Source of the DNA: an uncultured Armatimonadota bacterium
Lineage (GTDB): Bacteria > Armatimonadota > Armatimonadia > Armatimonadales > Armatimonadaceae
Direction of reading: 5' to 3'
Length of the DNA stretch: 34,778 nucleotides
Assembly: GCA_903910385.1 (NCBI GenBank)
Contig: CAIVZM010000037.1
Location: forward strand, 1-34,778
Shown here: piece after piece, positions 3,752-7,772 of the stretch
Position numbering within the stretch: position 1 is the first letter of the stretch
Layout: every line of letters begins with the position of its first letter
Program-made: the position numbers and the translations under genes
The notes under the pieces: model-generated
Seen by the model: the letters and a program-made list of their open reading frames with translations, nothing else
Told to the model about the DNA's origin: nothing
Databases searched by the model: none

Positions 3752-4081
3752 TTAGAACTTTTCAAACCGATTGACTTCCATGACCCAAGCTATCGCTCCG
3801 CCAACTTCGACTTCGACCGGCGAAGGAATGAACGTGCCGACTGGCCCGGCATCCGGAGGCAGGACATTGACAAACTGCTTACGGGTTTTGCTTGCCTCCC
3901 CGATTATACCGAGGCATCGGTCGAGGTCTTTGTCCTCCACCCCCATCAGTAACGTCACGTTGCCTTCGCGGAGGAACCCGCCCGTCGACCCGATTTTGGT
4001 GAACTTGAAACCGCCCCTCAACAGGCTTTCGGTTATCTTGCCCCGGTCGCGGTCGTGAACCACCGCGATGACCAGTTTCAT
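3752..4081 (-). CDS. darA: PII-like cyclic-di-AMP receptor (DarA/PstA family)
   Basis: This is a 109-residue protein with the DarA pattern: MKLVIAVVHDRDRGKITESLL, then FTKIGSTGGFLREGNVTLLMGVED and the C-terminal FIPSPVEVEVGGAIAWV. Members are trimeric PII-fold proteins that bind c-di-AMP; their output is largely unresolved. The start is fixed by family alignment and by a strong ribosome site GAGGAGA about 9 nt upstream; the upstream extension to 4198 is not family-like. It is the last gene of the minus-strand scpA-scpB-dac-rluB-darA run. Its first 203 nt lie inside the 3' end of rluB in a different frame, so its ribosome site is within rluB. A link to the neighbouring cell-wall gene is plausible but inferred. 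Confidence 0.92.
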   Translation of the reverse strand: MKLVIAVVHDRDRGKITESLLRGGFKFTKIGSTGGFLREGNVTLLMGVEDKDLDRCLGIIGEASKTRKQFVNVLPPDAGPVGTFIPSPVEVEVGGAIAWVMEVNRFEKF

Positions 4082-5027
4082 TCTTATCTTCTCCTCTGAA
4101 ATTCCGCCTGTCCGATTCCTGCGAAGGCTTTCGACCCTCATAGGCGTTCCCGAAACGAGTTTCGGAGGGTCTGCTCGGACGTTTCCCCGGAGAATCACTT
4201 CCCCGATTACCTGGATGATTTATAGATTTATCGCCCCGATTCGACGCCGGACGGCGTTTTTCCTTCTCCGCCTGCGTCTCAGGCGTTGCGGCGAAAGTAT
4301 CTTTACCGTCACGAATCTCCGCGATTTCGCGCGGCGTCAGTTCACGCCATTCGCCACGCGCCAGATTCCCGATACCCACCGGCCCTACCTGAACGCGCCG
4401 GAGGTAGATAACTGGATGCCCTACTGTTTCTAACATACGGCGCACCTGCCGTTTACGTCCCTCATGTAACGTGAGCGCGATCAGGGACGTGCCGGGTTCG
4501 TCGCCGGTACGCAACAGACGGACGCTCGCCGATGCGGTCGGGCGCGATTCGCCTTCCAGCATCAAGCCTTTAGACAACCGCTTGAGAGTTTCGGCATCAG
4601 GTCGCCCCTTGACCACCGCATTGTAAAGTTTCCCAAGCGTTTTCGACGGGTGCGTTACCGCATAGATAAAGTCTCCGTCATTGGAAAGCAGTATCAGACC
4701 TTCGGTTTCGGCGTCCAGTCTTCCAGCGGGAACCAGTCGTGCACCGGGTATCTTGACCAGATCGGTCACTTTCTTTTCGGCATGACGATCCGCGACGGTG
4801 GAAACATAGCCTGCCGGTTTATTCAGAGCGACATAATAGTGACGCTCCGCTTTTGGTAATGGTTGCCCATCTACCGTAATTTTCTGTATCAACGGATCGA
4901 CAAGCGTTCCTGGCATCGTGATGATAGCGTCATCGACTGCGACTCTACCTGCCGCGATCCATTCTTCCGCCTTGCGTCGCGAGGTAAGTCCGGCGTCGGC
5001 GATTGTTTTTTGTAAGCGTTGCTGCAT
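3879..5027 (-). CDS. rluB: Pseudouridine synthase, RluB/RsuA family, with long disordered tail
   Basis: An N-terminal S4 RNA-binding domain (MQQRLQKTIADAGLTSRRKA..., residues 1-60) precedes the catalytic domain (YYVALNKPAGYVST, then AGRLDAETEGLILLSNDGD with D105 as catalytic Asp, and LTLHEGRKRQVRRML). The core ends near residue 250 and would isomerise a uridine in 23S (or 16S) rRNA. A 130-residue tail rich in R, G, P, Q, N and E follows; such tails occur in RluB-type enzymes. The last 67 codons overprint darA. The ATG at 5027 lies inside dac and begins exactly at the S4 domain; an in-frame TTG at 5057 is less likely. No ribosome site is seen, so coupling to dac translation is probable. Confidence 0.9.
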   Translation of the reverse strand: MQQRLQKTIADAGLTSRRKAEEWIAAGRVAVDDAIITMPGTLVDPLIQKITVDGQPLPKAERHYYVALNKPAGYVSTVADRHAEKKVTDLVKIPGARLVPAGRLDAETEGLILLSNDGDFIYAVTHPSKTLGKLYNAVVKGRPDAETLKRLSKGLMLEGESRPTASASVRLLRTGDEPGTSLIALTLHEGRKRQVRRMLETVGHPVIYLRRVQVGPVGIGNLARGEWRELTPREIAEIRDGKDTFAATPETQAEKEKRRPASNRGDKSINHPGNRGSDSPGKRPSRPSETRFGNAYEGRKPSQESDRRNFRGEDKNETGHRGGSRPRPGQDNRKPVEGRFQVHQNRVDGRVPPRRQRDVTDGGGGQRPRPMPRYNRGGKQNP

Positions 5028-6357
5028 AATGATTTCTGTAGAGGTAGTATCCCCCAACCGCTGTCAAACCGCCAATAATATAAGGAAAGATCGTGTTCAG
5101 GAGGCGAATCGCCGCCGCCGTTTCGGAAAAACGGACTTCATCAGATGCCAGTAAAGGCGTTTTTCCGACGGGCTTGCCTCCAGCGAAAGCCATCAGAAAT
5201 CCAAGTTGTTGTCCCTTCCGAATCGGCGCGACCAGATTCGGATAGAGACGAACTTCCGATGTTACGGCGAAACGTGCGTCATTGTTGACCGAATCCGTCG
5301 TCACATGCAAATCGCGAGCGGCAAGAACGGGGACGCTGGGACGGTCGCCATCACGAATCGTCGCCTGCGCAACGACATCGCTCTTGCGAGCCACATACTG
5401 CGCCGGAAAGCGATCAAAGCCCCAGTTGATCAGTGCGGCGGAATCCGCCGATGAATTTTCCGACCCCAGCACCACGGACAGAAGACGACGCCCCTCACGG
5501 GTCGCCGAGCCGACATAACAGAACCGCGCCTGACGCGTATACCCACTCTTGACGCCGTCCGCGCCGGCAACCTTTTCATGGAATTTTCGCGCCACCTTCG
5601 CAATGAACAGGGTATTGTTCTTGCGGACGCTCCGCTGGATCGTACATTGTGTATCGCGCACCGCCGCTGCAAAGCGGTCATTCTGCATTGCGGCGCGCGC
5701 AATCAGCGCAATATCGCGGGCGGTGGAGTAATGATTGGCGTCATGCAGACCATTGGGAGTCACAAAGTGCGAATTCACTGCGCCGAGCTCTTTCGCACGT
5801 GCGTTCATGCGCCCAGCGAAATTGGACAGTTTTCCGGAGATATGCTCCGCCATCAGCGCCGCGCCATCATTAGCGGAACGGATCAATGTAGCGCGAAGCA
5901 AATCTTCCGCCGATAGTTTCTCGCCGGGGACGAGGTGCATTTTGCTTTCGTCCCAGTCTTCGATTCGCGGGTCACGACAGACGACCACTTCGTCCGGTCG
6001 GGTATTCTCTGCAAAAATGAGCCCGGTAAGAATTTTAGTTGTGGAAGCGGGTTCCCGGCGAACATCTGCATTTTGTTCGTAGATAACCTGCCCGGTCATC
6101 GCATCCATCAGGATCAAGGAGGGAGCGCTCATGATCGGCGGGCTTGCGAGTTTAGCGGGATCATAGTACGCTTGGACTTGCCCTTTACGAATCAGTTCCG
6201 GCGAAACCAAGACCGGGCGGGCGGCAATTGGGGCGGAGACAATACCCGGTTCGGCGACGCTATCTTCCTGCCCCCGGACAGCGGCGGAAGTCCCGAAGCA
6301 TATGCCGGAGATTTGCGCCGTGATCGCCAGTGCGACACGCCAGTCTTTATGGATCAT
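4945..6357 (-). CDS. D-alanyl-D-alanine carboxypeptidase (penicillin-binding protein 5/DacF type)
   Basis: This is a 470-residue exported S11-family serine peptidase that removes the terminal D-Ala from peptidoglycan stem peptides. It has an N-terminal signal segment (ALAITAQISGICFGTSA). The three active-site motifs are present: S105-T-T-K108, S161-A-N163 and K270-S-G. A PBP5-type C-terminal domain follows (about 310-420). A C-terminal membrane segment (FPYIIGGLTAVGGYYLY) is followed by a basic tail. Its ATG overlaps the scpB stop as TAATG, indicating coupled translation. Its last 83 nt overlap rluB in another frame, so the Arg-rich tail after the membrane segment is overprinted on the S4 domain of RluB. 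scpA-scpB-dac-rluB order is also known from Firmicutes. Confidence 0.92.
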   Translation of the reverse strand: MIHKDWRVALAITAQISGICFGTSAAVRGQEDSVAEPGIVSAPIAARPVLVSPELIRKGQVQAYYDPAKLASPPIMSAPSLILMDAMTGQVIYEQNADVRREPASTTKILTGLIFAENTRPDEVVVCRDPRIEDWDESKMHLVPGEKLSAEDLLRATLIRSANDGAALMAEHISGKLSNFAGRMNARAKELGAVNSHFVTPNGLHDANHYSTARDIALIARAAMQNDRFAAAVRDTQCTIQRSVRKNNTLFIAKVARKFHEKVAGADGVKSGYTRQARFCYVGSATREGRRLLSVVLGSENSSADSAALINWGFDRFPAQYVARKSDVVAQATIRDGDRPSVPVLAARDLHVTTDSVNNDARFAVTSEVRLYPNLVAPIRKGQQLGFLMAFAGGKPVGKTPLLASDEVRFSETAAAIRLLNTIFPYIIGGLTAVGGYYLYRNHYAATLTKNNRRRRTYLATQGGRMDRGR

Positions 6358-6926
6358 TATGCCGCACCCGCCGCCGCAAGAGCGGTCTGAGCCATTTTGG
6401 TCGCCGCCTCCATGTCTTCGGCGTCATCATCCAGTGGCGGTAAGTCCTCCAGACAGGACAGACCAAAATAATGGAGAAAGGATTCAGTAGTTGCGTAGAG
6501 GATGGGTCGCCCCGGCGTCTGCTTGCGTCCTGCCTCGCGTATCAGTTCGCGCTCTGTCAGGGTTTTTAAAACGCCATCGGAAGCGACGCCGCGAATCGCT
6601 TCCACTTCCGCCTGAGTGCAGGGCTGTCGGTACGCGATGATAGCGGCGGTTTCCAGCGCCGGTTTGCTCAGACGGTTGGCGCGAGGAGCCAGAAGCTTAC
6701 CGATTACCGGAGCGTATTGCGTCCGTGTGCAAAGTTGCCATCCTCCTGCGATTTCCATCACCTGAAGACCGGAATCGGTATAACGATCACGCAGAAACCG
6801 TAGCGACTCATAGATCGCCTCCTCGTCGGTTTCCGTGGTCTTTGCCAGTTCCTTTGCGGAAAGCGGTTCACCGGCGACAAATAGCAGACATTCAACTATT
6901 CGACTTAGTTCTTTGTAGTCCATCAT
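6357..6926 (-). CDS. scpB: Segregation and condensation protein B
   Basis: The 189-residue protein has the ScpB tandem winged-helix pattern: ELSRIVECLLFVAGEPLSAKELA at the N-terminus, GGWQLCTR in the first wing and LSKPALETAAIIAYRQPCTQAEVEAIRGV in the second domain. It then shows 'LTERELIREAGRKQTPGRP' and TTESFLHYFGL. ScpB dimers join ScpA and SMC to form bacterial condensin. The acidic, Ala-rich C-terminal end after LEDLPP is a usual variable tail. It starts 3 nt after the scpA stop; two consecutive ATGs (6926, 6923) are possible starts. Its TAA stop shares a base with the dac start. Confidence 0.95.
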   Translation of the reverse strand: MMDYKELSRIVECLLFVAGEPLSAKELAKTTETDEEAIYESLRFLRDRYTDSGLQVMEIAGGWQLCTRTQYAPVIGKLLAPRANRLSKPALETAAIIAYRQPCTQAEVEAIRGVASDGVLKTLTERELIREAGRKQTPGRPILYATTESFLHYFGLSCLEDLPPLDDDAEDMEAATKMAQTALAAAGAA

Positions 6927-6929
6927 TCG

Positions 6930-7772
6930 TTATTTGTCTACGCTTTCCGCTTCAAGAATAATTCCCTCTTCCGTATTCGATATCAAGGAAGACCGCTCCG
7001 CTTCGGGGACGAAGAATACGCGGATCTCTCCGCAAAAATCTTCCTGCGCGACTATCAAACTCCCCTGCTTCAACAATTCGAGAAGGGCGAGAAACAGCAA
7101 GACAATTTCCAGAAGGGCGAACGGCGGTTCCGGAATCAATTGTGCAAGCGCGATTCCTGCGCCTCCTGCCTTTTCCGCCGCGCCCAGTGTGGCTCGCATC
7201 GTCATTCGCAGGGTAATCTTCTGGCGGCGGACGCTGGTCACTGCGCGTTCCCCGGCTCCTACATCCGCCAGGATGCGCTCCAGAGTGCGGATAAGGTCAG
7301 CAGCTGCCATCTCCCCAAAGCGGGGCGGCAACGAATACAAGCTACGGAAATCCGCCGTGGGACGAAAAAATAGCGATTGCCGGTCGTATTCCGCCGTGCG
7401 CAAATTTTCCGCCAGGGTCTGGAACCGTCCGTACTCTAACAGGCGTTGCACCAGTTCGGCGCGTGGATCATCCGGTGAAATGCCCGCTCCTTCGCACTCC
7501 TCCACCGTTTCCACAGGCGGCCGTGGCAACAACAGGCGCGACTTTATTTCCAGGAGCGTCGCCGCCATCACCAGAAAATCACCCGCAATATTGAGATTCA
7601 GGGCGTCCATCGCCGCAAGATGCGCGAGGAACTGATCGCAAAGAGAGGCGATAGGTAGATCAAAAATGTCCATCCGCCCCTGTCGCACCAGATGCAACAA
7701 TAAATCGAGCGGACCTTCAAACGCCGTAAGCTGTACGAGTGGCAACGTCGCGGACGTTTGTGAGGCAGACAT
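6930..7772 (-). CDS. scpA: Segregation and condensation protein A
   Basis: The 280-residue protein begins close to the kleisin N-terminal motif: LTAFEGPLDLLLHLVRQGRMDIFDLPIASLCDQFL. It continues with 'AGDFLVMAATLLEIKSRLLL', a typical ScpA segment. The C-terminal winged helix ends with FLALLELLKQGSLIVAQEDFCGEI. ScpA is the kleisin that bridges the heads of SMC and binds ScpB, and it acts in chromosome segregation. It is the first gene of the five-gene minus-strand operon. No Shine-Dalgarno sequence precedes the ATG; instead two perfect TATAAT boxes in a 13-bp tandem repeat lie directly upstream. Confidence 0.95.
   Translation of the reverse strand: MSASQTSATLPLVQLTAFEGPLDLLLHLVRQGRMDIFDLPIASLCDQFLAHLAAMDALNLNIAGDFLVMAATLLEIKSRLLLPRPPVETVEECEGAGISPDDPRAELVQRLLEYGRFQTLAENLRTAEYDRQSLFFRPTADFRSLYSLPPRFGEMAAADLIRTLERILADVGAGERAVTSVRRQKITLRMTMRATLGAAEKAGGAGIALAQLIPEPPFALLEIVLLFLALLELLKQGSLIVAQEDFCGEIRVFFVPEAERSSLISNTEEGIILEAESVDK

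Follow-up and report, generated by a model that had tools for sequence, protein, structure and literature searches.

In the window, which is the whole stretch of 34,778 nucleotides analysed and belongs to Armatimonadota, the 3' end of rluB lies over the 5' part of darA on the same strand for 203 nt, and the overlap was confirmed to be real and not a sequencing error. It recurs in the same phase in the family of the window genome (f1), where synonymous codons of darA are biased in favour of the RluB frame. Judged from sequence comparison, the overlap is probably dual-coding, under weak compositional selection.

The rluB and darA genes in the window

The features of the overlap were as follows.
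3752..4081, minus strand: darA, putative c-di-AMP receptor (PII-like), 109 aa (PF06153, 1.1e-35)
3879..4081, minus strand: rluB/darA overlap, 203 nt; the RluB frame is the -1 frame of darA
4091..4095, minus strand: Shine-Dalgarno sequence AGGAG of darA, 9 nt before the ATG, within rluB
3879..5027, minus strand: rluB, 23S rRNA pseudouridine synthase of the RsuA/RluB family, 382 aa from ATG 5027

The rluB frame was open from ATG 5027, where the S4 domain starts, to a stop ending at 3879, with TTG 5057 as a possible extended start of the ORF. Between 5027 and 5057, no clear Shine-Dalgarno sequence was seen for ATG 5027. The overlap comprised the last 67 sense codons of RluB together with its stop codon, and covered the first 62% of darA; position 3 of a darA codon is position 1 of a RluB codon. 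The RluB core ended near 4305, well short of the overlap, and was followed by a disordered tail. As the original prediction had stated, this tail was rich in R/G/P/Q on both sides of the point where the overlap starts.

The RluB core scored above the cut-offs for the S4, PseudoU_synth_2 and TIGR00093 profiles, and matched its relatives at 53-63% in the alignment. The RluB equivalog NF007976, which denotes U2605 specificity, was the best scorer among the RsuA/RluB/RluF models and remained below its cut-off (123.8 bits against 290); the name rluB within TIGR00093 is our best guess. DarA matched PF06153 over its full length (residues 1-109) with 122.5 bits against a cut-off of 27, which supports the earlier view that darA is a real gene. 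Its score for the NCBIfam DarA equivalog NF058593 was below the cut-off (116 bits against 140), and the product is described here as a putative c-di-AMP sensor of the DarA/PstA type. Orthologues of darA were found in 115 of 151 genomes of the phylum, and the protein was conserved from residue 1.

Recurrence of the overlap in the family

The f1 sample consisted of 12 genomes, of which 11 had darA and 10 had rluB directly upstream on the same contig. Beyond the 203 nt of the window genome (genus g1), complete long overlaps were present in four genomes of three other genera, namely g6 (203 and 191 nt), g7 (185 nt) and g4 (185 nt). The g3 assembly had the rluB core on one contig and darA on another, both broken within the R/G-rich tail; on the darA contig the tail frame was likewise open and had its stop 203 nt into darA. 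The overlap was short in g5 (32 nt in 4/4 genomes) and in g2 (1 nt), and the phase was identical in all f1 overlaps except that of g2. Outside f1, rluB never adjoined darA in f2, f24, f9, f5 and the other loci examined.

These results bear on two points of the original prediction. In the comparison of junctions that it had proposed, RluB of related genera also terminated within darA, at a position that drifts between genera and is 32 nt into darA in g5 and 1 nt in g2. The situation that it had named as contrary evidence (rluB stops ahead of darA, with an indel or a sequencing error behind the extension) was absent from most of f1: only g2 ended at the darA start. The length of the tail is dispensable, with 32 nt of overlap in g5 and none inside darA in g2, a point against the dual-coding reading.

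In the protein tree, the non-overlapping g2 was placed among the overlapping genera with weak node support (49 and 42), and the overlap was likely lost in g2. No outgroup had a rluB-darA junction from which to polarise the ancestral state; the tail may have grown by loss of an original stop, as the original prediction had suggested. The RluB stop of g5 was a TAG within GAT|AGA at darA codons 10-11, which indicates that synonymous darA changes of the type separating g5 from the rest suffice to shift the RluB stop by ~50 codons. We infer from such comparisons how the RluB tail may have arisen within darA. In the alignment, the tails showed 35-59% identity to the window tail, with DarA imposing much of that identity.

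R/G/P-rich RluB tails also occurred without an overlap, with a length of 293 aa in g2 and 86-173 aa in other families of the phylum. At L032/L069 (G007), the 293-aa tail was R/G/P-rich and repetitive and ended with TAATG, right where darA begins. At the start of L065 and the end of L074 (G002), both contig breaks fell in the R/G-rich rluB tail. This suggests that R/G-rich rluB tails cause assembly breaks, and hence are under-represented in MAGs.

Codon choice in the overlapped part of darA

A stretch of 58 or more codons was open in the -1 frame of darA in 6/6 genomes from g1, g3, g4, g6 and g7, compared with 3/47 non-overlapping darA genes. For the window darA alone, shuffles that kept the DarA protein and its own codon pool were equally open in that frame at a codon-permutation P of ~0.16-0.22; a single such frame in one darA gene is not very rare. 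In a neutral simulation on the tree, with codon usage taken per genome for the sequence contexts concerned, openness had a P of ~0.004 for the five genera and 0.035 without the discovery genome. By itself, the openness test is modest.

The base composition of darA third positions, which are RluB first positions, was then compared inside and outside the overlap. T was found at 18/295 third positions in the overlap and at 33/211 outside (p 5e-4); the 42 controls showed no difference (346/2017 vs 262/1479). Third-position T ahead of AA/AG/GA was low genome-wide, which counts against the dual-coding reading.

The composition named beforehand in the original prediction (R/G/P/Q) was assessed by codon permutation in the five genera, the only ones that carry the long overlap. 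The RluB frame showed an excess of these residues with z values of 3.07, 1.80, 0.97, 0.82 and 1.93, giving a Stouffer z of 3.85 (rank test 2e-4), or 2.76 without the window genome. The same permutation in 47 control darA genes gave a mean of 0.01 with an sd of 1.04, and g2, where the RluB stop lies at the darA start, gave a z of 0.41. With the permutation confined to the overlap, the excess was 2.64 (rank test 0.003), so it is not merely due to a base-composition gradient. There was no excess in the +1 frame (1.33), the sign was reversed 3' of the RluB stop (-2.28), and 60 segments taken from further genes in these genomes showed no excess. In summary, with the DarA protein given, the synonymous choices in the overlapped part of darA keep stops and codons beginning with T out of the RluB frame and enrich it in R/G/P/Q. 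The suggestion that the tail is an overprinted disordered region was thus strengthened, with the codon statistics (the Stouffer z of 3.85) favouring selection.

Four-fold sites inside the overlap showed on average no excess of conservation across genera over those outside, which points to selection on composition and openness, not on exact sequence. A close pair of g6 genomes had been considered as evidence of constraint (52/59 vs 25/41), and was rejected when the same contrast was found in the non-overlapping control pair L011-L012.

Selection, neutral read-in and coupling

The main competing explanation is neutral read-in after loss of the rluB stop, with the tail as tolerated junk whose R/G/P bias simply follows from darA and GC content. 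In non-overlapping high-GC3 relatives, this frame was also 0.5-0.65 RGPQ, and much of the R/G/P richness is a passive outcome of the darA sequence; only the excess is selective. The drift of the stop position and the four-fold sites also agree with neutral read-in, and neutral models account for many long overlaps (PMC3887535, PMC2542354). However, the R/G/P/Q excess and the avoidance of stops and T-initial codons were specific to the frame, the region and the overlapping genomes. In addition, third positions between genera were near saturation (branches of 0.7-1.2), which makes long neutral retention unlikely. Taken together, we consider neutral read-in unlikely, though it is the strongest of the alternatives.

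The overlap is most likely a translated, compositionally constrained, disordered tail of RluB, as far as can be judged from codon usage and comparison of genomes. In the mechanism that we infer, ribosomes on rluB would pass the darA ribosome site and translate 62% of darA from its 5' end in the -1 frame, so that RluB acquires its R/G/P/Q-rich disordered C-terminus. Other ribosomes would initiate separately at the AGGAG/ATG of darA and produce DarA. Selection on the synonymous codons of darA would prevent stops in the tail frame and preserve its bias towards R/G/P/Q. The exact sequence of the tail would drift, as expected for a disordered tail that probably binds RNA or the ribosome.

The overlap might also act as a coupling device, in which ribosomes translating the end of rluB make the darA start accessible or obstruct it, and so link the output of RluB and DarA. 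The darA ribosome site did lie within the rluB reading frame in all overlapping genomes. However, termination-reinitiation works only up to a distance of about 20-40 nt (PMC10666635), and the rluB stop ends 203 nt into darA, far past that range. No conserved RNA fold was found at the darA start and ribosome site among the overlapping genomes, where the structure was not consistent, and the length of the overlap was not conserved. Tight coupling is unlikely because the stop is out of reinitiation range and no RNA fold is shared at the darA start; the obligatory coupling of the two products that had been proposed was not upheld, and we regard a coupling device as a rather improbable explanation. 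Sequencing error, misassembly or a wrongly placed start codon, to which annotated long co-directional overlaps have been ascribed (a survey of 338 genomes accepted none of >60 bp as real and recommended regarding them as annotation errors; PMC2478687), has almost no probability here and is already refuted by the recurrence in the family, with independent assemblies from several genera carrying the overlap in the same phase, DarA conserved from its first residue and the RluB core finishing well ahead.

Comparison with known systems

The longest co-directional overlap accepted by Palleja et al. 2008 was holD/rimI, of up to 56 nt (PMC2478687). In Enterobacteria, holD/rimI resembles rluB/darA in that the 3' end of one gene covers the 5' start of the next, is kept between genera and varies in stop position. 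However, it spans 32-56 nt compared with 185-203 nt for rluB/darA, where the overlapping rluB end encodes a disordered tail and its codons bear evidence of selection. The rnpA-rpmH genes of Thermus likewise have two functional same-strand frames on one bacterial transcript, but rpmH is nested in rnpA and one initiation site is common to both (PMC9841429). Neutral models have explained why long same-strand overlaps mostly have phase 1, with stop loss as a proposed origin (PMC3887535, PMC2542354). Long phase-1 overlaps formed by 3' extension have, like rluB/darA, a length of 2 mod 3 (PMC3887535, PMC2542354). These models need no selection, whereas the synonymous codons of rluB/darA depart from neutral permutation.

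E. coli RluB and RluF have a disordered C-terminal tail of about 40 aa (PMC3919597), which, as here, is poorly conserved and lies beyond the catalytic core (PMC3919597). The Armatimonadota tail differs in that part of it is encoded by the next gene. Considering these E. coli tails and the R/G/P-rich tails that occur without overlap, the overlap encodes part of a familiar kind of tail. With regard to the signs expected of dual coding, the phase of rluB/darA was conserved between independent genomes, and selection on the second frame beyond the first was seen as compositional selection, with no excess of exact conservation. Neither the rluB/darA nor the dac/rluB overlap was found described in the papers searched, a collection with few of the subscription journals.

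Dual reading at such length has been regarded as something that bacteria almost never use. If the tail is indeed translated, annotation rules that trim such tails would be wrong for some lineages. The overlap would then also be a natural experiment on disordered tails arising by read-in to a neighbouring gene, the genera ranging from some with a full tail inside darA to one with a short tail and one with none.

The dac/rluB overlap and the upstream operon

The upstream features were as follows.
4945..5027, minus strand: dac/rluB overlap, 83 nt, same phase; Dac tail AATLTKNNRRRRTYLATQGGRMDRGR over the RluB S4 start
4945..6357, minus strand: dac, D-Ala-D-Ala carboxypeptidase (Peptidase_S11 and PBP5_C), with a C-terminal hydrophobic segment and a basic tail
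6357..6926, minus strand: scpB (PF04079), with a 1-nt stop/start overlap with dac; conserved cluster
6930..7772, minus strand: scpA (PF02616), upstream gene of the conserved cluster

The gene order scpA-scpB-dac-rluB-darA was conserved in f1, except that dac and scpAB were elsewhere in g6. The translation of rluB may depend on ribosomes coming from dac. In f1, the dac/rluB overlap measured 44-185 nt without any change of phase. Beyond f1, dac also extended into rluB in this phase, by 50-209 nt in 22/22 loci of a first sample and likewise in most of a further 20 loci. A search route through TIGR00093 to control genomes yielded 0 loci from other phyla. The overlapped part was the Dac tail after the hydrophobic segment, for example AKSARRRRRRL, read from the stretch encoding the S4 motif RLQKxLAAAGVASR.

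Arg/Lys enrichment by synonymous choice had a mean z of 2.14 in 39 overlapping loci and of -0.08 in 6 loci without dac overlap (p 8e-5 for the contrast, which is not a strict probability, as the loci are related). This comparison omitted nine loci in which the S4 start differed from the motif searched for. The metric was picked after the f1 tails had been seen, whereas scoring of the 22 loci outside f1 preceded their inspection. In g6 (L067/L138 and L071/L139), where dac and scpAB lie apart from rluB, Dac still ended in RARRARRRRRR with no overlap, which indicates that Dac has this tail in its own right. The g6 Dac tail serves as a natural control for the dual-coding claim.

Two successive operon overlaps (83 and 203 nt) thus recur in independent genomes with codon-level signs of dual coding, and the signals of dac/rluB across the phylum also favour a dual-coding rluB/darA. 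We lean towards the view that scpA-scpB-dac-rluB-darA is a chain of dual-coded C-terminal tails. The basic membrane-anchor tail of Dac would lie on the S4-coding part of rluB across most of the phylum, and the R/G/P/Q tail of RluB on darA in a single family; selection would keep both far longer than has been assumed for co-directional overlaps of such a size. Downstream of darA, positions 1696-2706 of the window hold a gene for a UvdE-family UV endonuclease (PF03851) beside an NlpC/P60 gene.
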